Positions 5,416-22,508 of a stretch of DNA of 22,508 nt are shown here, in pieces. Position 1 is the first letter of the stretch. Every line of letters starts with the position of its first letter. The notes beneath the pieces were generated by a model. The model had not been told where the DNA came from. It searched no databases and worked only from the letters and a program-made list of their open reading frames with translations. Origin of the DNA: a virus; IMG/VR virus record IMGVR_UViG_3300023278_000915, positions 1-22,508 of that record; one strand, 5' to 3'. The translations under genes were made by a program, and so were the position numbers.

Positions 5416-8400
5416 ATGGCTCAAAAAAATATAACTATAGATATTATAGATAAAGAGTATGATGATACTTATATACCATCAACTGCTCTTTATGATGAGA
5501 ATAATGTTGGTAATGGAGCTTTTAACAATCCACTTTCCGGTTCAAATATAGGGGAGGCAGGTTGCGGTACTTCAAACCCTGCAAAATACAATATAAGTGG
5601 AGCTAATGGTACTCCTATATCTAATAACCTTAAGCCGTGGTCTTATGACTCTAATCTTGCTCCGGGCGCAGGGTTTTGTGGTATTGTTTATAGAGATACT
5701 CCACTACCATATACATCAGGAGGTCAGCTTAAGTTTCCCGGAACTCCTCCGCCTTCTAACGCGGGAGTTGAATATGTAAAGGATTTTGATTTTACAGGAA
5801 ATCATAATGCAGCTAATAATAATGGGTGGATGAATGGTTCGGGATATCCTATGGCTAATTATTATCCCGGAGCAAGTCAATATGCTATGAATTATTTAGG
5901 AGCTAATGCTCCTGTAGGTAATAACCAAGCTTGGTATGGTGTGAATACTGTTTGTTATAACGGAGGTCTTGGAAGTTTTAATCCTACTTCAGCAGCCATA
6001 CCTGCTCTTACTAACACATATGCCGCTTATAATTATATGAAAGTAGGGGGTGGGTCACCTGACACTTGCGGAGCAGGAGGTAATATAAGTTATGCAGGTG
6101 TATGGCAAAGAATTACCGGCCTTACAGCAGGGGTTAATTATACCTTGAAAATAAAACTTGCAGGTGCAGATATTAACGGAACTAGTTATATAGCTATGGG
6201 AATAAATCCCGGAACTTATCAAGGAACTTATTATGAACCTTTAGGAGGGGCTAGTGCGACTATGTATGGAGGAGGCCCCGGAAGTATCTATGGTGGACAA
6301 AGCACCGTCCCAACATATTCAGGAAACCTTAGACAAGATATAACTACAGAACAAGTATTTACATTTAACTCTGTAGGAGGTAATGAAGTTTTTAATATAG
6401 ATGTAATGTCTGACAATACCTCAGGAAGCACTGCTTCAATAACTATTGACTATGTTAGTATACAAGAAACACCATCATCACAAATTGGAAATTGGAGTGG
6501 AGTTTACACTAAAGTTGATATTGGGGATGCTAACACAGGAAATCCTGCAGGTGTAGCAAAGGTAAGGGCGAATATAGATACAATAGATACTTCTGTAAAT
6601 GGAGATGCTATAATGATTGGTCAAAGTGCTATGCAGGGTGGAAATCTAACAGGAGCAGTAGGCTTAAATAATATGTTTCAACCTGTAATAATTGCTAGTA
6701 ACAATCCACTTTTAAGCCCAACACACCCTTTAAGCACAGGAATGAATACTTGGAGTCAGTTTACGCAATTAGCAGACTCTACAGGAGCTTTTAATGCTGA
6801 TGACAGGCTATTTGAAATGCAAGTTATAAATACAAGTGGTAATACTATTAAATTTGACAGTTTAGATATCAGGTATACGAGCTATACAACCCCTGTTACT
6901 TCTCAGACAATTAATTATGACAAGAGTGTTGTTGGTACTTTAGAGGTGTCAGAAAGTGAAGATTTTCCTTTAGACATATCATACACAATATCAGATGGAA
7001 AAAATTTAGAAAATAGATTTGGGGATTACTCTAAAAGTTTTGACTTACCTGCAACTGCAAACAACAATAAAGTTTTAAATAATATATGGAAGGCTAATGT
7101 AGACCAAAAAGATAAAAAAACATATGGTATAAAAGACTGCAGAATAAGTGTAGATGGCATTCCATTCTTTGAAGGAAGTATTCAAGTAAAAAAATCAACA
7201 CACGCAGGAAAAGCAAAGTCATATAGTTGTACTGTATATGGTGGTAATTTCAGTTGGATGTCTTTATTAAAAGATAAGGGTCTTTGCGAAACTTTTGATG
7301 AGGCAGATTCTTTTCCTTTTGACTATGCAAACATAGAAAACACTTGGACACAAACTCAAAGCACTACAGATATACAATACCCTTTAGTATCTTGGAAAGA
7401 TTTTAATATTGGTGGGCTGCAAAATTATATAAACACTTTTGATACAGATAAAGTTCCTGATTTTCAAGCTGCATTTTATGTTTATAACATACTTCAAAAG
7501 ATATTTAAAAATATAGGATATAAATTAGATTCTAATTTCTTTGAAACTGCTAACTTTAAAAGATTAATAACTACATTTCCATTTTTAAAGAATGACGCTA
7601 AAGACGACAGAGTTCATTATACTTGCACTCAGCAAAGACAGACAAATGATTGGCAACAGGTTCATTATAATGTAGGTTTAGGAACGCTTACAGGCTCTTG
7701 GAATACTTGTATATTGAATCACAATGTAAATGACCCGTCTCAGTCTTATGATAATAGTAATGGAGTATGGACTTGCCAAAAACAAGGAACTTATGATGTA
7801 ACGGCTGAAATGGGATTTGGTATATTTCTTTTGAGTGATGTAATGGCAGATTGTGGAGGGAACACAAGTACCACTTGTGATTGGGAGTACACTTCTGCTT
7901 CTCCTTCTGACGCTTGGTATTGGGCTTCAAGAGTTAAGGTAACTACAGCTTCAGGAGTTGTGTATGGAAATACACCTTCTACAGGTTGGGGAACTAATGT
8001 AATACACGAATTAGATTGGTATAGTGTTTATTGTTGGGATACAGCTACAGAAAAACTTACTTTACCCTCTTTTAGTGTTACTCTTGATGTGGGAGATACT
8101 ATTGAACTTCAAGGTCAATTTACAGGTCAAAACTTATTAGGTTGCGACCCTGATGTAAAAGCGTCTTTTGGTTTTGATGCAAGTACAGCTAGTTTAGGAA
8201 ATAGACAACCAAGAATGACTATAGCATTTAATGATTCAACTCCTAATATAGGTGGTGATGTTGTTAAAAATAATATTTTACCTTGTGGAACTAGTCAGGT
8301 AGATTTTATAAAAAGTATTTCTCATTTATTTAATTTGTATTTTACAACAGATGTCTCTTCAAAAACAGTATATGTTGAGCCTTTTAATGATTTTTATAAA

Positions 8401-9336
8401 CCAAAAGGAGAGGGGATAGATTGGACTACAAAGGTAGATTTCTCTCAAGATATTCAAGATGACTATGATATAGGACTTAAAAGCGACCTTAGAGTAGGAT
8501 ATAAAAAAGATGGTGGAGATAAGTATATGGAAAACTTAAATTATAAAAGCAATATATATGGAGATACAACTAGGCTTTATGATTACAATGAGACGCTAGG
8601 AGATGATTTTGAATCAGGAACTTTAGAAATGATAAACCCTTTATTTGCTTCATCTACTCAGGTTTGGGATAATGATGCTCACGACGACAACACAGTTTCT
8701 AAAGCTCCTGTATTAATACCTAACGCTTGGACTGAAGATTGTTACAATGGCATAGGTTTAGGAAATAATCAGTATCGCCCTTCGCAATTAATTGATGGCT
8801 ATATTCCTAGAATATTTTACTACTGTTGGGAAAATCCTGTAAGCTATACAACTATACCAAATGGTTTAGTTGCTAATGCAGCCGGAACTCAAACATATTG
8901 GTCTAGAGTCTTTAGTAATGGAAGCCCGTTTCAAAACCAAACAGTTTATCCTAGAGCTACATTTGTAGATTGGGAAGAAAGAGTTCATAATATAACTATG
9001 AGGCCTTCACTATCTTTTAATGATGAAAGTTTTACAGCTCCGGGACAATTTAATGTAAATACAGTTCCGGGATTATATACTGTTTACTATAAAAATATGA
9101 TAGAGCAGTTAAAAGAAGCTCCTAGAATAAGAACTGTATACATAAACTTAAAAATAGCAGATATATTATCTTTAGATATGAGAAAGTTAGTTTACCTAGA
9201 TGAGACTTGGTGGAGAATTAATAAAATAGACGGATATAATCCTGCTAAAAATCAAACAACTAAGGTTCAGCTTATACAATGGATAGATGTAGGATTTTAC
9301 CCTATATATGTTAATGGAGATAAAATAGATTACTAA
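5416..9336 (+). CDS. Large baseplate hub/adhesin-like tail protein
   Basis: This is a 1306-residue protein. Residues 1-15 are followed by about 480 residues rich in Gly, Asn, Ser and Tyr that look like carbohydrate-binding beta modules (WQRITGLTAGVNYTLKIKLA, VFNIDVMSDNTSGSTASITI). From about 500 comes a different region that I recognise from Bacteroidetes phage tail proteins: SESEDFPLDISYTISD, YSKSFDLPATANNNKVLNNI, then DGIPFFEGSIQVKK. Residues 733-935 form another beta-rich, Cys-containing module. The conserved part resumes near 954 with TSQVDFIKSISHLFNLYFTT and VYVEPFNDFY. The likely reading is a baseplate hub scaffold carrying two inserted receptor-binding modules. The gene starts one base after the previous stop and ends one base before the next ATG. 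Motifs are seen directly; the receptor-binding role is inferred. Confidence 0.62.
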   Translation: MAQKNITIDIIDKEYDDTYIPSTALYDENNVGNGAFNNPLSGSNIGEAGCGTSNPAKYNISGANGTPISNNLKPWSYDSNLAPGAGFCGIVYRDTPLPYTSGGQLKFPGTPPPSNAGVEYVKDFDFTGNHNAANNNGWMNGSGYPMANYYPGASQYAMNYLGANAPVGNNQAWYGVNTVCYNGGLGSFNPTSAAIPALTNTYAAYNYMKVGGGSPDTCGAGGNISYAGVWQRITGLTAGVNYTLKIKLAGADINGTSYIAMGINPGTYQGTYYEPLGGASATMYGGGPGSIYGGQSTVPTYSGNLRQDITTEQVFTFNSVGGNEVFNIDVMSDNTSGSTASITIDYVSIQETPSSQIGNWSGVYTKVDIGDANTGNPAGVAKVRANIDTIDTSVNGDAIMIGQSAMQGGNLTGAVGLNNMFQPVIIASNNPLLSPTHPLSTGMNTWSQFTQLADSTGAFNADDRLFEMQVINTSGNTIKFDSLDIRYTSYTTPVTSQTINYDKSVVGTLEVSESEDFPLDISYTISDGKNLENRFGDYSKSFDLPATANNNKVLNNIWKANVDQKDKKTYGIKDCRISVDGIPFFEGSIQVKKSTHAGKAKSYSCTVYGGNFSWMSLLKDKGLCETFDEADSFPFDYANIENTWTQTQSTTDIQYPLVSWKDFNIGGLQNYINTFDTDKVPDFQAAFYVYNILQKIFKNIGYKLDSNFFETANFKRLITTFPFLKNDAKDDRVHYTCTQQRQTNDWQQVHYNVGLGTLTGSWNTCILNHNVNDPSQSYDNSNGVWTCQKQGTYDVTAEMGFGIFLLSDVMADCGGNTSTTCDWEYTSASPSDAWYWASRVKVTTASGVVYGNTPSTGWGTNVIHELDWYSVYCWDTATEKLTLPSFSVTLDVGDTIELQGQFTGQNLLGCDPDVKASFGFDASTASLGNRQPRMTIAFNDSTPNIGGDVVKNNILPCGTSQVDFIKSISHLFNLYFTTDVSSKTVYVEPFNDFYKPKGEGIDWTTKVDFSQDIQDDYDIGLKSDLRVGYKKDGGDKYMENLNYKSNIYGDTTRLYDYNETLGDDFESGTLEMINPLFASSTQVWDNDAHDDNTVSKAPVLIPNAWTEDCYNGIGLGNNQYRPSQLIDGYIPRIFYYCWENPVSYTTIPNGLVANAAGTQTYWSRVFSNGSPFQNQTVYPRATFVDWEERVHNITMRPSLSFNDESFTAPGQFNVNTVPGLYTVYYKNMIEQLKEAPRIRTVYINLKIADILSLDMRKLVYLDETWWRINKIDGYNPAKNQTTKVQLIQWIDVGFYPIYVNGDKIDY

Positions 9337-10243: not shown

Positions 10244-13200
10244 ATGGCCTCACAAGAAACAAAAATAATTAATGTAAAGATTAAAGGTGTAAATGACCTT
10301 TTAAAGCTTAAAGCTGAATTAAAAAAACTCAAGAAAGAACAAGAGAAAATTACTTCTGTAAATAAAAAAGGAGAGAAAGAGTGGATTGATAAAGAAAGAG
10401 CAATTACTAAGGCTACTCAAAAGGTAAGAAAGCATAGAAATGAATTAACAAAACTAGATAAGGAACAAAGAAAAACTCAAAAAGGTGGAGCAGGATTTTC
10501 TAAAGGTTTACTTAAGATGGCTGCAGGTATTACTGCTGTTGTTGCTACTGTAAGAGCTTTAAGTAGAGTTTTTGTTTCTGCATTTAAAACCTTTACTGAG
10601 TTTGAATTCTCTATGGCTAAGGTAAGAGCAATATCAGGAGCTACAAATGAGGAGTTTATGAAGCTTGAGCAAAGTGCTAAAGAGCTTGGTAGAACTACAT
10701 TCTTTACAGCTAAAGAAGTTGCAGAATTACAAGTAAACTTTTCTAAATTAGGATTTACAGCCGAACAAATTTTAAACTTACAAGAAGCAACACTAGATTT
10801 AGCAATGGCTACAGGAAGTGATTTAGCTAGAAGTGCAATGGTTGCAGGTTCTGCAGTTAGAGGTTTTGGATTAGATGCTGCTGAAGCAACTAGAGTAGTT
10901 GATGTTATGGCTGTTTCATTTACAAGCTCTGCTTTAGATATTGAAAAATGGCAAACATCTATGACTAAAGTTGCTCCTATTGCCGCTAGTATGGGAGTAA
11001 GTATTGAGGGTACTGCTGCTGTTATGGGAGTGTTAGCAGATACAGGTATTGAGGCTTCTATTGCAGGAACATCATTAAGAAATATATTCTTAAAAATGGT
11101 TAATCCAACATCTAATCTTGCTAAGAGAATAGGATTTACCGTCAATAGTACTAAAGATATGATAAAAGCTCTTAAAAAGCTAAGAGATGCTAAAATTGGA
11201 GATTTAGAAATGAGTTCTCTTGTAGATGTAAGACAGCAGGCTTCATTTAAGGCTATGCTTAAAGGTGTAGATATAATTGAACAATATACTATAGCAAACG
11301 ATAATGCTACCGGAGCAAGTAGAGAAATGTCTGCAATTATGGAAGACTCTACTAAGGGTGCATTCAAAAGATTTACCTCAGCAATGGAAGGATTGTTTTT
11401 AGTGCTTTCAGAAAAGATTGCTCCATTTATAAACAAAGTAACTAAAGGAACTAGAGAATGGATTGAAATGCTTACGGGAGCTGCAGATAAAAAAATATCT
11501 GATAGAATGAAAGACCAAGTTAAAGAGTTTCAAAACCTTTTTAATGTTTTAAAAAAATCTACAGTTTTAGACCAAACTAAAGAAAAAGCCTTAAAAGAAA
11601 TTAACAGAAAATACTCTGAATATTTAGGCTATCAACTTACTGATATTAACGACACAAAAGCTTTATATGAAGCTGAAAAATTACTTAACGAGCAATTTGC
11701 AGAAAGAATTCAACTGCAAGTAGCAGAAGAAGGGTTAGGTCAATTTTACAAAGACCAAGAAAAAAGAGCTTATGATTTATTTAATTTACAGAAAGAGATA
11801 GCTAAAAGTCCATTAGGAAAATTAAAATCATATGAAGACCTTTTTAGTGAAGGTGCAAATGTTGCTATGGATGACGCTAAAGCATTGTGGGATTTTATTT
11901 CTGACTTAAAGGTTAATACTTTTGAAGAGGACGGAGAGATAGACGGATTTATGCAAAAACTAGAAGCAGGACTTGTATTTGGTACAGGAGTGCTAAACAA
12001 CTTATGGGCTATACCTCAAGCGTTTATTAAAGATATGGACGCTTGGGCAGACTTTAAGTTAATATCAGATGAGATTGCTAAACTACAAGCTGAAATTACT
12101 GCAGAAAGTAAAGATGAGTCTTATTGGAAGGATAGAGTAATAGCTGCAGGAGGAAAAATAAAAGACTTACTTGGTAAAGCCAAACTTGAACCTTGCCCTT
12201 CAGGTCAGCATAGAGACCCTATAACAAAGGAGTGTGTAGACCTTGTGGCTGTTAGGAATTTTGCTGAAGAGTTGGCTGCATTTCAAGTATCCGTAAATGA
12301 CAGAACTTCTGCTGATTTTATAGCTAATGAAGAAAAAAGAAACATTAAGATATTAGAAAAAAAGAAGGAGTTAGCTGAGGCTGAGTTTAATCTTCTTGCA
12401 GATGGAGACCAAAAAAAGGCTGCGGCACATTTAAAATATTTAAAATCTATTGAGAGATTAGATAGGGCTAACTTAAAAAGACAAGAAAAAAGATTAGATG
12501 AAGGTCTTGTTATGACCAAAAGAAAATTAGCTCAAGAAGGTAGAGATAAAGAACATTTTACATTACAATTAGAAAGAAAGGAGTTGCTAGCAGAGAAAAG
12601 AATGCTAGAGAAAAAATTACTTCTATATAAAGACTATAGTGAAGAGTGGAAAAAGATTAGGAAACAGATGGAGAAGGTTGATGAGGATATTAAAGTCAAT
12701 GACCACGAAAGTGAAATGGAGCTTAGTCAGTTTAAGGTTGAGATTGCTCAAGAAATAGCCAATGCTACCTTTGCTATTATGTCTAATAATCTTGCAAGAG
12801 AAAAAGAAGCGGCAATAAATGACTTGCAAAATACCTATGATAATGAAATGTGGTATCTTGATAGGCAATTAGAGGATAAAACTATGTCTAAGGCTGATTA
12901 TGATGGTAAAAAACTTATAGCAGATACTAAGCTTAAAGAAGAAGAGGAAAGAGTAAATAAAGAATTTGCTAAAAAGGAGAAAAACGCAGCAAAAGCGCAG
13001 GCTGTAATAAATGGTGCTTTAGCTGTTACTAAAGTGTATGCTCAATTAGGAACTCTTGCAACTTTTACTGTCCCTTTAATTATTGCTGCTACAATGGCTC
13101 AGTTAGCAGTTATTGAGTCTCAGCAATTTGCTAAAGGAGGAATTGTAGAAAAATTTGCTGATGGAGGAATGGTTGTAGGTAAGTCTCACGCTCAAGGAGG

Positions 13201-13495
13201 AGAAAAGTTTGCAGTAGGAGGAAGGGTTGTTGAATTAGAAGGAGGAGAGGCTGTTATTAATAAAAGAAGTACAGCAATGTTTGGAAGTCAATTATCTGCA
13301 ATGAATGCCGCAGGAGGAGGTGTTAAGTTTGCTGATGGAGGTCTTTTAAATCAAAGTTCTTTTAGTTCGGCAAGATTTAATTCAGCAGGATTTAATTCTT
13401 CACAAGGAGGAGGAGGCAGGGTTGTTGTTGTAGAATCAGATATTACAACATCACAAAGAAAAGTTAGAGCAATAGAGAACAATGCAAGCTTTTAA
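10244..13495 (+). CDS. Tape measure protein (TP901 type)
   Basis: The 1083-residue product sets tail length and passes through the tail during DNA injection. Residues 1-75 are a Lys/Glu-rich coiled coil. About 88-115 is hydrophobic (GLLKMAAGITAVVATVRALS). The conserved TP901 core follows at about 120-290 (EFSMAKVRAISGATNEEFMK, ELGRTTFFTAKEVAELQVNF, then MGVLADTGIEASIAGTSLRN). A long helical middle region carries a two-Cys segment near 650 (PCPSGQHRDPITKEC). Another hydrophobic stretch lies near 930-965, and a Gly-rich repeat ending contains AKGGIVEKFADGG and LEGGEAVINKRS, which is typical of tape measure C-termini in these phages. At roughly 0.15 nm per residue the tail would be about 160 nm long. 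This is the most certain assignment in the tail module. Confidence 0.92.
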   Translation: MASQETKIINVKIKGVNDLLKLKAELKKLKKEQEKITSVNKKGEKEWIDKERAITKATQKVRKHRNELTKLDKEQRKTQKGGAGFSKGLLKMAAGITAVVATVRALSRVFVSAFKTFTEFEFSMAKVRAISGATNEEFMKLEQSAKELGRTTFFTAKEVAELQVNFSKLGFTAEQILNLQEATLDLAMATGSDLARSAMVAGSAVRGFGLDAAEATRVVDVMAVSFTSSALDIEKWQTSMTKVAPIAASMGVSIEGTAAVMGVLADTGIEASIAGTSLRNIFLKMVNPTSNLAKRIGFTVNSTKDMIKALKKLRDAKIGDLEMSSLVDVRQQASFKAMLKGVDIIEQYTIANDNATGASREMSAIMEDSTKGAFKRFTSAMEGLFLVLSEKIAPFINKVTKGTREWIEMLTGAADKKISDRMKDQVKEFQNLFNVLKKSTVLDQTKEKALKEINRKYSEYLGYQLTDINDTKALYEAEKLLNEQFAERIQLQVAEEGLGQFYKDQEKRAYDLFNLQKEIAKSPLGKLKSYEDLFSEGANVAMDDAKALWDFISDLKVNTFEEDGEIDGFMQKLEAGLVFGTGVLNNLWAIPQAFIKDMDAWADFKLISDEIAKLQAEITAESKDESYWKDRVIAAGGKIKDLLGKAKLEPCPSGQHRDPITKECVDLVAVRNFAEELAAFQVSVNDRTSADFIANEEKRNIKILEKKKELAEAEFNLLADGDQKKAAAHLKYLKSIERLDRANLKRQEKRLDEGLVMTKRKLAQEGRDKEHFTLQLERKELLAEKRMLEKKLLLYKDYSEEWKKIRKQMEKVDEDIKVNDHESEMELSQFKVEIAQEIANATFAIMSNNLAREKEAAINDLQNTYDNEMWYLDRQLEDKTMSKADYDGKKLIADTKLKEEEERVNKEFAKKEKNAAKAQAVINGALAVTKVYAQLGTLATFTVPLIIAATMAQLAVIESQQFAKGGIVEKFADGGMVVGKSHAQGGEKFAVGGRVVELEGGEAVINKRSTAMFGSQLSAMNAAGGGVKFADGGLLNQSSFSSARFNSAGFNSSQGGGGRVVVVESDITTSQRKVRAIENNASF

Positions 13496-13518
13496 TTATA
13501 AAATTAAAATATATTTTA

Positions 13519-13526
13519 TATATTTG
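13519..13526 (+). promoter_or_regulatory. Candidate Bacteroidetes-type -7 box before the small-gene cluster
   Basis: TATATTTG fits the TAnnTTTG consensus exactly. It lies in the 53-base gap after the tape measure gene, 22 bases before the ATG at 13549. No clear TTG -33 box is present at the expected distance, so the call is tentative. The identical octamer occurs at 21539. Confidence 0.4.
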
Positions 13527-13548
13527 CTAACCAATAAAATACTAACAA

Positions 13549-13758
13549 ATGTTTGTTGATAAATACATAAAGGAGGCTCGTATAAGTGTTTGTAAAAAAT
13601 GCGAGTTTTACAGAAATTTTTTAATGCTAAAAAAACCAATCATAACAAGAGGCTCAAGATGCGGAAAGTGTTCTTGCTTTTTAGATGCTAAAGCAGGCCT
13701 TACTAAAGAGTGGTTTGGGAAATGCCCGATAAATAAATGGGAAGAAAAAGGACTTTAA
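13549..13758 (+). CDS. Small zinc-ribbon protein, 69 aa
   Basis: The protein carries CKKCEFY near residues 15-21, then RCGKCSCF near 42-49, and GKCPINKW close to the end. The paired CxxC motifs should bind one zinc ion. Short proteins with this CxxC / CGKCxC / KCPxxKW layout are common next to tail genes in Bacteroidetes phages, but their function is unknown to me. The gene follows a candidate promoter and overlaps the possible early start (13737) of the next gene. It lacks a membrane segment, so it is probably a cytoplasmic assembly or regulatory factor. Confidence 0.7.
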   Translation: MFVDKYIKEARISVCKKCEFYRNFLMLKKPIITRGSRCGKCSCFLDAKAGLTKEWFGKCPINKWEEKGL

Positions 13759-13772
13759 AGAAAAATACAGAT

Positions 13773-14015
13773 ATGAAATTAGTAGAATCTATAATATCCA
13801 AGGTATCTAAAGAAGATAAAGAAGAGATACAGAATAACATTTATTTAATAGAAAAAATAACAGACAAAGAGCATTATAATAGCGGCTTAATGAGAGTGCT
13901 TTTTCATTTTTGGGCTAAATACATACCTCAGCACAAGCAAAGTATGAAGTGTGGTGGATGTCGTCAAGCTGTATTAAGATTTTGGAAGCAAATTAATACT
14001 GAATGGAATAAATAA
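13773..14015 (+). CDS. Small CxxC protein, 80 aa
   Basis: I chose ATG 13773 (MKLVESIISK) rather than the upstream in-frame ATG 13737, because the earlier start would overlap the zinc-ribbon gene by 22 bases and add a Lys/Arg-rich stretch that looks like the shadow of that gene. The product is helical and ends with MKCGGCRQAVLRFWKQINTE, a CxxC followed by an aromatic-rich helix that I recognise as a recurring ending in small Bacteroidetes phage proteins of unknown function. Its TAA overlaps the next start (TAATG), so it is co-translated with the helix-turn-helix gene. Confidence 0.6.
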   Translation: MKLVESIISKVSKEDKEEIQNNIYLIEKITDKEHYNSGLMRVLFHFWAKYIPQHKQSMKCGGCRQAVLRFWKQINTEWNK

Positions 14016-14338
14016 TGGCGCAAAGACAGAATGATATAGAAATAGTATATGAGTATTTAGATTTAATGGAAAAGGAGATTACATTAAGAATACCTGAAGA
14101 TGCTACAATTAAAGACACAATACTACATTTACTTGAAAAAGGATTGATACCTCCAAAAAAAGTAAGAAATTATATGATTATTAATGATTTTGACAAATTA
14201 TTAGTAAGCAATGAAGGTAATCGTACTCATACTTTTATGGATATATCTATAAAATATGAAATAACTGAAAGGCAAGCTCAGACTATAGTTTACAAGGATA
14301 GAAATAAACATATGCCTACCTATAACATTAGTTATTAA
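14015..14338 (+). CDS. Small helix-turn-helix protein, possible regulator
   Basis: The 107-residue product has an N-terminal helical region and a C-terminal segment FMDISIKYEITERQAQTIVY (about residues 74-93). This reads as a helix-turn-helix of the kind seen in Mor-like activators and small terminase-like proteins: a first helix, the turn YEITERQ, and a recognition helix. It ends 55 bases before the protease start, and the intervening gap contains the 11-base promoter element shared with the tail module. A role in switching on late genes is therefore attractive, but a DNA-packaging role (small terminase-like) cannot be excluded. Function is inferred from motif and position. Confidence 0.5.
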   Translation: MAQRQNDIEIVYEYLDLMEKEITLRIPEDATIKDTILHLLEKGLIPPKKVRNYMIINDFDKLLVSNEGNRTHTFMDISIKYEITERQAQTIVYKDRNKHMPTYNISY

Positions 14339-14350
14339 AAACTTGTTCCT

Positions 14351-14389
14351 AAAACTTCGCAAATACTTTTAATACTATTTGTATTTTTG
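14351..14389 (+). promoter_or_regulatory. Candidate phage promoter of the head module
   Basis: AAAACTTCGCA (14351-14361) is separated by 20 bases from TATTTTTG (14382-14389), an exact TAnnTTTG box. The same element and spacing lie at 212-250. The ATG of the protease gene follows at 14394, so transcription starting a few bases after the box would give a leaderless or nearly leaderless message. Confidence 0.55.
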
Positions 14390-14393
14390 TTAA

Positions 14394-14699
14394 ATGCAAA
14401 AAGAATGGTATAAAATTAAGAATAATGCATCTGAAACTTCAGATGTTTATTTATTTAACGATATAGGTACTTTCGGAATAACAGCTCAAAGCTTTATTGA
14501 TGAGATTAAAGAGTACGATAACAAAGAATTAAATATACATATTAATAGTTTAGGAGGAGAAGTTTTTGAAGGTATGGCTATTTATTCTATTATTCAAAGA
14601 AGAAAAGCAAAAACAACAGTTTATATTGAAGGTATAGCAGCTAGTATTGCTTCTGTTATAGCATTAGCGGCAGACGAGGTTATTATGAGTGAAAATTAA
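14394..14699 (+). CDS. ClpP-type prohead protease, N-terminal part (ends at in-frame TAA)
   Basis: This 101-residue piece is the N-terminal half of an S14 (ClpP-like) serine protease, the kind that processes phage proheads. Recognisable elements are LNIHINSLGGEVFEGMAIYS, the oxyanion-loop region of the family, and GIAASIASVIALAADEVIM, where Ser84 matches the catalytic serine of ClpP (GxAASxA). Reading stops at TAA (14697-14699) right after MSEN. The same frame continues with LLMIHNAWGG, which carries the catalytic histidine. Thus a single codon separates two halves of one conserved domain. The stop may be a sequence error, a nonsense mutation, or a site of readthrough or reinitiation. Alone, this fragment cannot be an active protease. 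Confidence 0.8.
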   Translation: MQKEWYKIKNNASETSDVYLFNDIGTFGITAQSFIDEIKEYDNKELNIHINSLGGEVFEGMAIYSIIQRRKAKTTVYIEGIAASIASVIALAADEVIMSEN

Positions 14700-14705
14700 T
14701 TACTT

Positions 14706-15395
14706 ATGATACACAATGCTTGGGGCGGAACTCAAGGAGACGCTAGAGATATGAGAAAACAAGCTGATGTTCTTGATAAAATCACAAATGAAATTGCTGA
14801 AGTTTATGTAAAGAAAACCAACATTCCTTATGACAAAGTTATAGAGATGATGAATGAGGAGACTTGGCTTACAGCAAAAGAAGCAGTAGCACTAGGTTTT
14901 GTAAATTCCATCTCAGAACCAATTAAAGTAGCTGCAAAATATGATGTCTCTAGATTTAAGAACATCACAAACAAAAAGGTGGATACAATTTTAAGTTTAA
15001 CAGAAAAAAAGAAAATCAAAATGACAGAAGAATTAAAAACTTGGTTTAACTCAAAGGTTGATGAGATTATTGCTAAAGTGAAAACTGATGGTAGTGAAAC
15101 TCGTGAAACTGTTGAGTCTGTTGAGGTTGAAGTAAAACTTACTGATAACGAAGATGTGATGAACAAATTTTCGGATTTAGAAGGTACTATTTTAACACTT
15201 AACAATTCTATTATTGAATTAGAAGGAGAAAAAGAAACTCTTTCTGTAGAAATAAATAGAGTAAATGCTTTATTAAGCAAGTCGGAAGCGAAAGGAACTG
15301 ATACCTCTACAGACTCAGACCCTGCCGTAGTAGAAAACAAAGTAGAGGACGCAAATAGTAATTTCTTTGATAATTTAGCTTCAAAGATAAAATAA
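14706..15395 (+). CDS. Prohead protease C-terminal part with scaffold-like extension
   Basis: This 229-residue reading frame is in phase with the preceding fragment and begins at the Met of LLMIHNAWGG. The first 85 residues complete the ClpP-like fold: the histidine motif MIHNAWGG, a helix with KQADVLDKITNEIAEVYVKK, and NEETWLTAKEAVALGFVNSI, the family's final acidic/helix motif. The remaining 125 residues are a separate, acidic, helical region with coiled-coil spacing (LNNSIIELEGEKETLSVEIN) and a Ser/Thr/Asp-rich linker, resembling a scaffold domain. Read through the stop, the complete protein would be 333 residues. Reinitiation at 14706, seven bases after the TAA, could also give two chains that pair, but this has not been shown for the family to my knowledge. 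Confidence 0.75.
   Translation: MIHNAWGGTQGDARDMRKQADVLDKITNEIAEVYVKKTNIPYDKVIEMMNEETWLTAKEAVALGFVNSISEPIKVAAKYDVSRFKNITNKKVDTILSLTEKKKIKMTEELKTWFNSKVDEIIAKVKTDGSETRETVESVEVEVKLTDNEDVMNKFSDLEGTILTLNNSIIELEGEKETLSVEINRVNALLSKSEAKGTDTSTDSDPAVVENKVEDANSNFFDNLASKIK
15021..15395 (+). CDS. Possible scaffold protein from an internal start
   Basis: An in-frame ATG at 15021 (MTEELKTWFNSKVDEIIAKV) follows an A-rich leader of the kind used for initiation here, exactly at the junction between the protease and the helical region. Initiation there would make a free scaffold of 124 residues identical to the protease C-terminus, as in the nested lambda C/Nu3 arrangement. The product has coiled-coil character and a short amphipathic C-terminal helix (FFDNLASKIK), which in scaffolds often contacts the capsid protein. 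This is inference from layout. Confidence 0.4.
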   Translation: MTEELKTWFNSKVDEIIAKVKTDGSETRETVESVEVEVKLTDNEDVMNKFSDLEGTILTLNNSIIELEGEKETLSVEINRVNALLSKSEAKGTDTSTDSDPAVVENKVEDANSNFFDNLASKIK

Positions 15396-15420
15396 TTAAT
15401 AATAAAAAAAGAAAAAGAAA

Positions 15421-16533
15421 ATGGCAAATTTAGCAGATAATGGCTTAGGAGGATTATATGTAGGTACTTACGCATCTAACATTCTTCTAGAGCCTATGTT
15501 CCGTTCAGATGATGTTATGAGAAACTATACAGTTTATCCTAATGTTAAGTACAAGCAAAATATTTTAATGGCAAACAAACTAACTGATATTACAGCAGTA
15601 AATACAGGGTGTGGTGCTAACACTTGTACAGGAGCAAACTTAAACGATTTTGATATTACTCAAAAAGTTTTAGAAGTACAAAATGTTTCAGTAAAACAAA
15701 CTCAATGTTGGGCAGAGTTTAAAGCTGAAGTTATTAGAGAGTCTTATGCAGCAGGTATTAGTATGCCTGACTTAAATGGAACTCAATTAGCAGAGATTAT
15801 TGGAAAAAGAACTCAGCAAGGTATCGCACACGATACAATTAGAAATATGTGGGCAGGAGATGTTCTTTTAAATGCAGCAGCAGCGAACTGTTCTTATGGT
15901 TCAATGGGAGATGGTCTATGGAAATTATTATCTGTAGGTAATGCTATCGCAGGTGGAACTCAGTTAAGAGAATTTACAGCTACAGCTACAGCGGCAGCTA
16001 ATTTAATTGCAGTAGGCGCTACAATTTCTCCTACTGATGCAGAAATGTTATTAAGAAGCGTATTTGATGGTGCAGACGCAGAATTACAACAAACTCCTGC
16101 AGGAGAGAAGAAAATGTTCGTTACTCCAAATATCTACAATGCATACTACGGAGCTTTAACAGCAGTTTCTCCGTCAGTAGGTGCGGTTGATTATGGACAC
16201 TCAGAAGCTCAATCAGGTGTAAATTACCCTAAATTAAGATTCAGAGGTGTTGAGGTAGTTCCAATGTACGAATGGGATACTGCTTTAACTGCATTAGGAA
16301 CAAGTGCTTCAACTGCATTATTTACAGCAGCAACAGCAGGTATTCAAGCAACTCAAGGATGTATTTACGCAGCAAAATCTAACTTATTTATAGGTTCTGA
16401 TGTTACTGCTCCTGAGAACAACTTCAAAATGTTCTATGATGAGTCAGCAGAAGATATGAAAATTAGAGCTTACTTTACTATGGGCTTCCAATACGGTTGG
16501 GACTCTTTAGTAAATGGAGGAATGCTAGTATAA
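15421..16533 (+). CDS. Major capsid protein
   Basis: The 370-residue product follows the protease/scaffold gene by 25 bases of purine-rich leader. Its opening (MANLADNGLGGLYVGTYASN) and a later segment (VNYPKLRFRGVEVVPMYEWD) fit HK97-fold capsid proteins of Bacteroidetes siphophages; the strand-turn KLRFRGVEVVPM is the typical late beta-strand of that fold. The ending SAEDMKIRAYFTMGFQYGWD also matches capsid proteins, which commonly close with an ...FxxGvqygw-like strand. The codon choice is somewhat less AT-rich than in neighbouring genes, as expected for a highly expressed protein. A stable hairpin follows the stop. Confidence 0.85.
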   Translation: MANLADNGLGGLYVGTYASNILLEPMFRSDDVMRNYTVYPNVKYKQNILMANKLTDITAVNTGCGANTCTGANLNDFDITQKVLEVQNVSVKQTQCWAEFKAEVIRESYAAGISMPDLNGTQLAEIIGKRTQQGIAHDTIRNMWAGDVLLNAAAANCSYGSMGDGLWKLLSVGNAIAGGTQLREFTATATAAANLIAVGATISPTDAEMLLRSVFDGADAELQQTPAGEKKMFVTPNIYNAYYGALTAVSPSVGAVDYGHSEAQSGVNYPKLRFRGVEVVPMYEWDTALTALGTSASTALFTAATAGIQATQGCIYAAKSNLFIGSDVTAPENNFKMFYDESAEDMKIRAYFTMGFQYGWDSLVNGGMLV

Positions 16534-16546
16534 TCAATTAATAGAA

Positions 16547-16568
16547 GTAGGGGTGTAAAAACCCCTAC
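16547..16568 (+). terminator. Hairpin after the capsid gene (attenuator or RNA stabiliser)
   Basis: GTAGGGGT (16547-16554) pairs perfectly with ACCCCTAC (16561-16568) around a six-base loop. No clear U-run follows (AACTTTAACCTT), so it is more likely a partial terminator or 3' end stabiliser than a full stop. It sits between the capsid and tail tube genes. Confidence 0.55.
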
Positions 16569-16596
16569 AACTTTAACCTTAAAAAAATAAAATAAA

Positions 16597-17172
16597 ATGG
16601 CAATAGATACAGGTATAGCATTAGATTGTGCAGCATTAGTAGAAGTAGGGGGGTTAAACAATATTTTTGTAACAGATATTGAAAACTTAACTGCAGTTAC
16701 TCCTGCTTCATCTGCTACAACTCACGAGTACACAAACCTTACATACGGTACTTGGGCAATGTTTCAATTAAAACCTAACACAGCAACTTGGGCGACAACT
16801 TCTTCTAAGGAAAATGGTGTTACTAAATTTGAAACTACTGTTCAATGGTACATTCCAAATATTACTACAGCAATGTCAGCAATATTGGAGAATATGAAAA
16901 ACAAATGTATAGTAGCAGTTGGAGAATTTAGAAGTGGTGTTAGTTTAACTTGCGGTATTAGCGAGACTTATCCGGGAACAGGAGCAGGCTCTGATTATTG
17001 GAAGTATAATAAAACTTATGCTCATATGACAGTTGAGTCTACAAGTGGAGCTGATTTCGTTGATGGAAATGGAGCTACAGTTACTTTAGTAGCGAGTTCT
17101 TTTGAAACTCCTAGAGTATATGCAGGAGCAATTACTTATGCAGCAGGAAATACTCAAGCAAGTTTAGCATAG
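16597..17172 (+). CDS. Probable major tail (tube) protein
   Basis: The 191-residue product is beta-rich. It has segments typical of tail tube proteins: an N-terminal strand followed by ...IFVTDIENLTAV, a central KENGVTKFETTVQWYIPNIT leading into a helix (AMSAILENMKNKCIVAVGEF), and a C-terminal ADFVDGNGATVTLVASSFET strand pair. A decoration or minor capsid protein is the main alternative, since the gene lies next to the capsid gene rather than the tape measure gene. It is flanked by hairpins on both sides (16547-16568 and 17205-17242), as expected for a gene whose level is set separately. Its start leader is identical over more than 20 bases to that of the gene at 1630. Confidence 0.6.
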   Translation: MAIDTGIALDCAALVEVGGLNNIFVTDIENLTAVTPASSATTHEYTNLTYGTWAMFQLKPNTATWATTSSKENGVTKFETTVQWYIPNITTAMSAILENMKNKCIVAVGEFRSGVSLTCGISETYPGTGAGSDYWKYNKTYAHMTVESTSGADFVDGNGATVTLVASSFETPRVYAGAITYAAGNTQASLA

Positions 17173-17242: not shown

Positions 17243-17304
17243 ATATGTGCGACTGCAATAGAAAAAATTTTGTAGATTTACAAAAAATTAAATTATATTT
17301 AAGT

Positions 17305-17532
17305 ATGGCAAAATACGAAGTTAAGAAAAAATGGTTGGGAGAAGGTATTGCTACAAACTTTACTGATGGAAATGGTTCTACTCTTAGTATAGGGTGGGAT
17401 AATGCTAGTCAAAAAGATTTGGCTAGAGCTTATGAAGAATTCAATGGTGCAGAAGCATTTATTAATAAAACAGAAAAATCAAGTGAAAAAGCAAAAACCA
17501 AAAAGCCAAGCAAAACTATCAGCAAAGACTAA
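17305..17532 (+). CDS. Small Lys-rich protein upstream of portal, 75 aa
   Basis: I chose ATG 17305 (MAKYEVKKKWLGEGIATNF) rather than the in-frame ATG at 17245, which lies directly against the terminator T-run. The N-terminal half looks like a small folded domain with Trp and Gly residues (KKKWLGEGIATNF, LSIGWDNASQKDLARAYEEF), and the last 25 residues are Lys/Ser-rich and probably disordered. I do not recognise a function. Small accessory head proteins are common at this position. A weak promoter-like pair (TTG at 17270-17272 and TATATTTA at 17294-17301, 21 bases apart) precedes it. The gene end overlaps the start of the portal gene in another frame. Confidence 0.55.
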   Translation: MAKYEVKKKWLGEGIATNFTDGNGSTLSIGWDNASQKDLARAYEEFNGAEAFINKTEKSSEKAKTKKPSKTISKD

Positions 17533-18832
17533 AGCTAAGACTAAAGACAATGTTTATGAGTTTGGGGTGTTTAATTTAGCAGTTCCTCAAAGCGTCTCAG
17601 AACCTAAAAATCTTACAAACATAAGGACTAAGTGGATTCCTTTTGGGGATGATAATTTATTTCCTCAGTATCTTGCTGAATTAAAAAGAAAATCATCAAC
17701 CAATCGTTCTGTTTTAGCTCAAAAAACTATATTTACTAGTGGAGCTAAATTTGTTTGTGATAATGAGCCTTTAAGAAAGTTCATTGAAGATGTAAATGCA
17801 GACCACGAATCTTTAAGAGATGTTTTTAAAAAACTAGCTGATGACTATTACACATTTGGTAATGCATACTTAGAGTGCGTAGTGTATGATGGGGGTATAA
17901 ATCTATATCACTTAGACGCAACTACAGTTAGAATGTCCAAAACAAACAAAGAGGTTTATATAAACTCTGATTGGAAAAGATATTGGGCTAATGATGAAAA
18001 AATATCACGACTACCTATATACCCTAGAGTAGCTCACAATAAATTTGTAGTTCATTTTAAGGACTACGAACCTACATTTAACTTTTATGGCCTTCCTGAT
18101 TATGTTGCTGCATTAGAGCATATTGCAGTTGATTATGAAATAGGTAAATGGAATCATACTAAGTTTAAAAATGGCTTTCAACCTTCTGCAATCGTTGAGA
18201 TTAGTGGAGATATGGGAGAGGAAGAAGCAAAAAAATTAGTGCGTGAAGCACAAAAGAAATTTGTTGGAGATGGTAACAATGGAAAGATTATGTTTATTGT
18301 TAAAAATGGAGATACTTCTCCTGCAAATGTTTCTATAATAAAAGATGACCAAGACGGAAGTTGGTTGGATTTACAAAGAGTTACCGACCAAAATATAATT
18401 ACTGCTCATAGATGGCAACCTTCTTTAAGCGGTATTGTTAGTTCGGGTAAAATGAATAATACAGGTAGTGAGATTAGAATTGCTTATGATTTAGCAATGA
18501 CTACTGTTGTTAAAGATACTTCTGAATTATTGTTAAACGGAATAAGAAGAATCTTATATAATGAAATGGGATTTGACCCTAGAGATTTAAAGATACATTA
18601 TGAGCCGCCTGTATCTTATGCAAATGAAATAGATGTTAAGCAAGTTCTAACAATTAATGAGCAAAGAAGAATGTTAGACGAGGACTTGCCAATGCTAGAG
18701 GACGGAGATATGTTTGTTTCTGATAGAGAGGTAATAATTACTGATTATGATGAGTCTGAAGAGCAAGAGGTTGAAATAAAAGATGAAGATAATTATGAAG
18801 ATGATATTGATAACACTATAATAGAAGATTAA
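17483..18832 (+). CDS. Portal protein
   Basis: The portal is the dodecameric ring at the capsid vertex through which DNA passes. Recognisable segments are LTNIRTKWIPFGDDNLFPQY, DDYYTFGNAYLECVVYDGGI, YGLPDYVAALEHIAVDYEIG, NGKIMFIVKNGDTSP and QNIITAHRWQPSLSGI, which match the portal family of Bacteroidetes phages. I favour the GTG at 17483 (MKKQKPKSQAKLSAK), because earlier in-frame ATGs (17402, 17432, 17444) lie deep inside the upstream gene and would add a shadow translation of it. The 449-residue product has a very acidic tail (EDNYEDDIDNTIIED). The family call is firm; the start is uncertain. Confidence 0.85.
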   Translation: MKKQKPKSQAKLSAKTKAKTKDNVYEFGVFNLAVPQSVSEPKNLTNIRTKWIPFGDDNLFPQYLAELKRKSSTNRSVLAQKTIFTSGAKFVCDNEPLRKFIEDVNADHESLRDVFKKLADDYYTFGNAYLECVVYDGGINLYHLDATTVRMSKTNKEVYINSDWKRYWANDEKISRLPIYPRVAHNKFVVHFKDYEPTFNFYGLPDYVAALEHIAVDYEIGKWNHTKFKNGFQPSAIVEISGDMGEEEAKKLVREAQKKFVGDGNNGKIMFIVKNGDTSPANVSIIKDDQDGSWLDLQRVTDQNIITAHRWQPSLSGIVSSGKMNNTGSEIRIAYDLAMTTVVKDTSELLLNGIRRILYNEMGFDPRDLKIHYEPPVSYANEIDVKQVLTINEQRRMLDEDLPMLEDGDMFVSDREVIITDYDESEEQEVEIKDEDNYEDDIDNTIIED

Positions 18833-18833
18833 T

Positions 18834-19448
18834 ATGGCAAATTTAAGACAATATAAACCATTAGCTACAGCAGGAGAAGTAATATCTCAGTCATTTACTA
18901 ACGCTAATACAGACCCTTACTTAATATCAGATGACACGATTGTTATGGCTGAATTGGCTCATATTAAATCTTTGTTGGGGGTTAAGTTTTACGGAGAATT
19001 AAAAGAGCAGAATAATAATGGAACTTTAACTGTAGACAATCAAACATTTATGACTTATTATCTTATTCCTGCTTTATGTTGGATGTCTAGATTTGAAGTT
19101 ATATTGGAGATACAAAACAATAGTAGTTCAGCAGGCGTTGTAACTAATTTAGATGAGTTTGCAAGTGCTGTTAGTTCTGATGAGCTTAATGTTTACAGGC
19201 AAAGTACATATAGAAAGGGGAAGTTATTTTTAAATGATATGATGGATTACTTAAGAGGTAGTGAGCAGGCGGGTCTTTTCCCTACATTTGAAGATAATAA
19301 GTCTTGTATGACAGATGAAGTTTTTAAAAATCACGGAATAGTAATGTATGATAGTATATATGATAGAGACTATTATGGTAATTTTATTGTCGGCAATTCT
19401 TACTGTAATGGCTATTGCAATAATGGCTGTAATTGTAATTGTAATTAA
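18834..19448 (+). CDS. Head-tail connector/adaptor protein with Cys-rich tail
   Basis: The 204-residue product begins one base after the portal stop. It reads as a helical adaptor of the gp6/DUF6712-like group: an N-terminal strand with SDDTIVMAELAHIKSLLGVK, then FYGELKEQ, TYYLIPALCWMSRFEVILEI, and a helix RKGKLFLNDMMDYLRGSEQA. Adaptors of this kind bind the portal and start the tail-facing neck. Its last 16 residues are unusual: SYCNGYCNNGCNCNCN has five cysteines, and part is encoded by three tandem TGTAAT units (19428-19445). The Cys-rich tail could bind metal or form disulfides in the virion, or be a slippage product without function. Confidence 0.65.
   Translation: MANLRQYKPLATAGEVISQSFTNANTDPYLISDDTIVMAELAHIKSLLGVKFYGELKEQNNNGTLTVDNQTFMTYYLIPALCWMSRFEVILEIQNNSSSAGVVTNLDEFASAVSSDELNVYRQSTYRKGKLFLNDMMDYLRGSEQAGLFPTFEDNKSCMTDEVFKNHGIVMYDSIYDRDYYGNFIVGNSYCNGYCNNGCNCNCN
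19428..19445 (+). repeat. (TGTAAT)3 microsatellite at the 3' end of the connector gene
   Basis: Three perfect tandem TGTAAT units encode Cys-Asn three times before the TAA at 19446-19448. Tracts like this change copy number by polymerase slippage; each unit adds or removes two residues without a frameshift. Confidence 0.7.
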
Positions 19449-21774: not shown

Positions 21775-22508
21775 ATGAAAGAATATGGTAGACGATTAAG
21801 ATTATCAACTGATGAAGAAAACCTTATATACAAATACAGAGCAAAATCAGTAGACAATATAAATGATAATTCAGCATTAGATACACACTTATTAGAAAGA
21901 GGTATAGATAAAAAAGATGTCGTTTCAGTTAAGCATTGGCAATCAGCTAGTGGAGATTTTAGATTTTCAATAGTAACAAAAGAGGATTGTGGTTTAGATG
22001 AGAGCCAAATATTTGACAATGTAAATAAGTTTATAGAAGGATACTCCCCTGACTATAAAACAATAAAAAGAAAAAAAGGTAATCATCTTTTAGTTATAAA
22101 TCCTGCTGATATTCATATTGGAAAATATGCAAATGAGTTAGAGACGGGAGAGAATTATGATAGTGAAACTGCTGTTGGTAGAGTGTTAGAAGGAGTTCAA
22201 GGTCTGATAAATAAAGCAGAAGGATTTGATATTGATAAAGTTTTATTTTGCATAGGTAATGATGTTCTTCATATAGATAATGTTTATAACACTACTACTA
22301 AAGGAACTCATCAGGATACTGATGGTAAATGGTGGGAGCATTATGAAATAGCTTTAATGCTTTATGTTAAATGTATAGAAATGCTTAGGGAAATTGCTCC
22401 TGTTGATGTATTACATAGTATGAGTAATCACGATTATCAAAGTGGATTTCATTTAGCACACACTCTTAAGTCTTGGTTTAGAAAAGCTAATGATTTTTCT
22501 TTTGATGT
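21775..22508 (+). CDS. Metallophosphoesterase (calcineurin-like), partial
   Basis: The gene opens at ATG 21775 and runs off the right edge after 244 codons. Residues 1-45 look like a small helical DNA-binding-type domain (YGRRLRLSTDEENLIYKYRA). From about 104 the metallophosphatase core begins: LLVINPADIHIGKYAN (Asp112, His114), then VLFCIGNDVLHIDN (Asn162, Asp163, His166), and LHSMSNHDYQSGFH (Asn218, His219, Asp220). These match the DxH, GDxxH and GNHD metal-binding motifs, with GND in place of GD and SNHD in place of GNHD. Phage members of this family are probably nucleases or phosphatases acting in DNA metabolism. It follows the three-copy repeat and probably begins a new module. Confidence 0.82.
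   Translation, partial: MKEYGRRLRLSTDEENLIYKYRAKSVDNINDNSALDTHLLERGIDKKDVVSVKHWQSASGDFRFSIVTKEDCGLDESQIFDNVNKFIEGYSPDYKTIKRKKGNHLLVINPADIHIGKYANELETGENYDSETAVGRVLEGVQGLINKAEGFDIDKVLFCIGNDVLHIDNVYNTTTKGTHQDTDGKWWEHYEIALMLYVKCIEMLREIAPVDVLHSMSNHDYQSGFHLAHTLKSWFRKANDFSFD

Follow-up and report, generated by a model that had tools for sequence, protein, structure and literature searches.

A single in-frame stop codon in the ClpP-like head maturation protease gene of a metagenomic phage contig

The viral record IMGVR_UViG_3300023278_000915, analysed here over a stretch of 22,508 nucleotides (the window), presents a puzzle. Its head maturation (prohead) protease gene is interrupted by one TAA codon, located between two catalytic residues, and seems otherwise well preserved. 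Is this stop a device of the phage, or an accident of the record? A preliminary description had left four options: sequencing error, recent nonsense mutation, stop readthrough limiting the protease dose, or reinitiation giving a two-chain protease. Our comparisons favor the first two, which fit the evidence, while readthrough and reinitiation as evolved devices find no echo among relatives.

A ClpP-like protease gene interrupted at codon 102

The protease gene lies at positions 14394..15395 on the + strand, as established from its translation, profile matches, and relatives. Translated, it comprises 334 steps with one internal stop, the TAA of codon 102 (14697..14699, + strand), and the frame is the same on either side. 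The two halves flanking this codon, of 101 residues (N-terminal) and 229 residues (C-terminal), both match the Pfam profile CLP_protease (PF00574; E-values of 3.5e-14 and 2.7e-15, respectively), and they do so over consecutive ranges of this profile, i.e., 5-98 and then 110-180 (of 182). Both also match PHROG head maturation protease families (PHROG 133, 94, and 2976). Alignment to solved ClpP chains showed that the GIAAS and MIHNAW motifs coincide with the Ser and His active-site motifs of ClpP. The first contains the catalytic Ser84 codon (14643..14645, + strand) and the second begins with Met-Ile-His, codons 105-107 (14706..14714, + strand), with the catalytic His107. The location of the TAA between Ser84 and the His motif, within a single ClpP-like frame, is thus as the preliminary description had it, and translation, Pfam, PHROG, and structure alignment all agree on this point.

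The gene resembles phage head maturation proteases of the ClpP/S14 type in its sequence, in its GIAAS and MIHNAW motifs, and in its place just before the presumed major capsid gene. It directly precedes a 370-residue gene (15421-16533), which gave no strong match to Pfam or PHROG profiles and which, from its place, probably encodes the major capsid protein; the portal protein gene, recognized by Pfam, lies further downstream. Unlike these proteases, the window copy carries an in-frame stop at codon 102, so that its Ser and His motifs are not in one continuous frame. The stop is present in the given contig consensus and, read as this consensus gives it, the gene is a broken copy of a ClpP-like head maturation protease.

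Near the portal gene, a 95-residue gene (17245-17532) and the portal frame (17402-18832) share about 130 bases, which are read in different frames. The 36.7 kb relative (L002, see below) is arranged likewise, and the portal start may lie downstream of the listed ATG.

Codon 102 in relatives

An IMG/VR search yielded 80 relative loci (39-100% identity). In all 80, codon 102 is a serine codon (TCA or TCT), one base away from the stop, and the Ser and His motifs stand in one continuous frame; the aligned protease is free of stops in each of the 80. When all fetched loci are counted, many of them overlapping, serine is found at codon 102 in 202 and a stop only in the window's own copy. The exact flanking DNA of the window, with the differing base left open, was found in two other records, the contig L001 and the contig L002, both with the serine codon. 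We also scanned IMG/VR with the degenerate motif MSEN-x-LxMIHN: no match was obtained with x as a stop or Trp, against at least 120 stretches with x as serine. Named phage records provided distant relatives only (less than 60% identity, none spanning 80% of the query), and bacterial genomes gave no match. The stop is therefore private to the window contig, a singleton among the records found, although the set searched may lack records very close to the window, and further copies with the stop may exist there; the recurrence in homologous proteases for which the preliminary description had suggested looking is not seen.

This distribution bears directly on a programmed readthrough or suppression of the stop, by which the phage would limit its protease dose. 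The unchanged frame and the conserved sequence on either side of the TAA are what such a mechanism would leave, but the stop should then be conserved at the same codon, and it is missing from every relative found, in the aligned loci as in the motif scan. TAA is, moreover, generally the least leaky stop codon, the RNA fold around it is not significantly better than that of shuffled sequence (z -1.16), and neither the window nor L002 yielded a suppressor tRNA gene. Searching the literature for head maturation proteases with readthrough returned no matching paper. We regard this explanation as remote.

Reinitiation at the ATG of position 14706 would produce two chains, the first with Ser84, the second with His107 and the remainder of the enzyme, reassembling like a split enzyme. 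This ATG is in frame, three codons after the stop and seven bases after its last base, and both protease halves retain conserved sequence. Yet this Met, as the M of the conserved MIHN motif, occurs in almost all unsplit relatives and hence did not arise here as a new start. A split copy, with the protease in separate reading frames, was seen in none of the relatives found. No Shine-Dalgarno-like sequence was seen by eye before the ATG, which is weak evidence, as some hosts use none. Nor does the window protease bear any mark of adaptation to being split: it is identical to that of its nearest relative except at the stop base. Such a two-chain protease is thus very improbable. Nearly as improbable is the broader case of a real and tolerated stop, in which a working protease would be obtained either through two chains, with reinitiation at Met105, or through low-level readthrough.

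The nearest copy and the neighbouring genes

The nearest relative of the window is IMGVR_UViG_3300023196_000939 (L001), which has serine at codon 102 and an intact protease frame where the window copy has the stop. Over window positions 12642-16731 (about 4,090 bases), the two differ at only five bases, one of which is the stop base, 14698. The differences at 13417 and 13653 are both synonymous, and the two remaining ones are amino acid changes in gene 15421-16533, for which L001 is the odd one out. Only at 13417 and 14698 does the window stand alone among the relatives compared. Within the protease, neither half shows a synonymous or a nonsynonymous change relative to L001 (0 and 0), and because the gene is otherwise identical, the stop is either an error or extremely recent. 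As far as can be read from the gene itself, no adaptation to the stop is visible. Relative to L002, the N-terminal half carries 3 synonymous and 0 nonsynonymous changes and the C-terminal half 3 and 5, numbers too small for a test of relaxed selection.

Leftward of this region, about 415 bases of the tape measure gene (12227-12641) form a tract that differs from L001 at about 85 positions (about 82% identity), while rightward of it the window and L001 are 99.9% identical. In this tract, many alleles are common to L001 and L002 against the window. It has the look of a recombined tract, of strain diversity, or of a chimeric join.

The L002 contig (36,753 bases) probably represents a genome that is closed or circularly permuted, since the match of window gene 5416-9336 spans its ends, which also overlap. 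Apart from the protease, the window genes are read without interruption and have counterparts of matching length in L002 (full-length or near full-length), at 83-100% protein identity and with no stop inside the matches; for gene 18834-19448, the match spans residues 1-193 of 204. At the right edge of the window, a reading frame that stays open for at least 244 codons (21775-22508) runs past the window end and is 95.9% identical in L002.

Could TAA have been reassigned to an amino acid in this phage? The single in-frame TAA of the protease is what such a reading has in its favor. Stop recoding is recognized by a stop that is avoided as terminator, present in-frame in many genes, and often accompanied by a suppressor tRNA, a pattern that the window does not show. 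Indeed, TAA is the normal terminator, ending 18 of the 21 window genes, the other genes are uninterrupted, and tRNA genes of any kind are lacking in both the window and L002. The preliminary description had held wholesale recoding to be unlikely with TAA as the ordinary terminator, and we would go as far as to discount it almost entirely.

A defective phage whose genes are decaying at large was also considered and rejected, the other genes being intact relative to L002. The preliminary description had named, as what would speak against its reading, absence of the stop from every related phage together with decay elsewhere: the absence is observed in every relative found, but no decay is seen, as the remainder of the window is intact.

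An isolated substitution and its meaning

With a probability of roughly 93%, we consider the stop to result from one isolated nonsense substitution, of a single base, which the contig consensus carries in a protease gene that is otherwise ordinary and intact, and not to be a programmed feature. One base substitution in the consensus would have turned the serine codon 102 into TAA. As to its origin, we infer that the consensus rather probably went wrong at this base, through a sequencing or assembly error or because a thinly covered contig took up a minority or damaged read. A genuine nonsense mutation that arose very recently in the phage sampled is possible, and we hold it more tentatively. 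The intact remainder of the window, if it says anything, favors an error or an event of very recent date. Of random single-base changes in the window genes, about 5.3% create a stop, so that a few consensus errors per contig suffice to produce such cases in a scan covering many windows.

Were the change real, the chain would end before the catalytic His and, by analogy with ClpP-type proteases, protease function would be lost and head maturation thereby blocked, unless the host suppresses the stop. A stray stop of this kind has little significance beyond quality control. More generally, where a phage contig from a metagenome shows a premature stop that a near-identical contig lacks, recoding, readthrough, or gene splitting should not be inferred from it.
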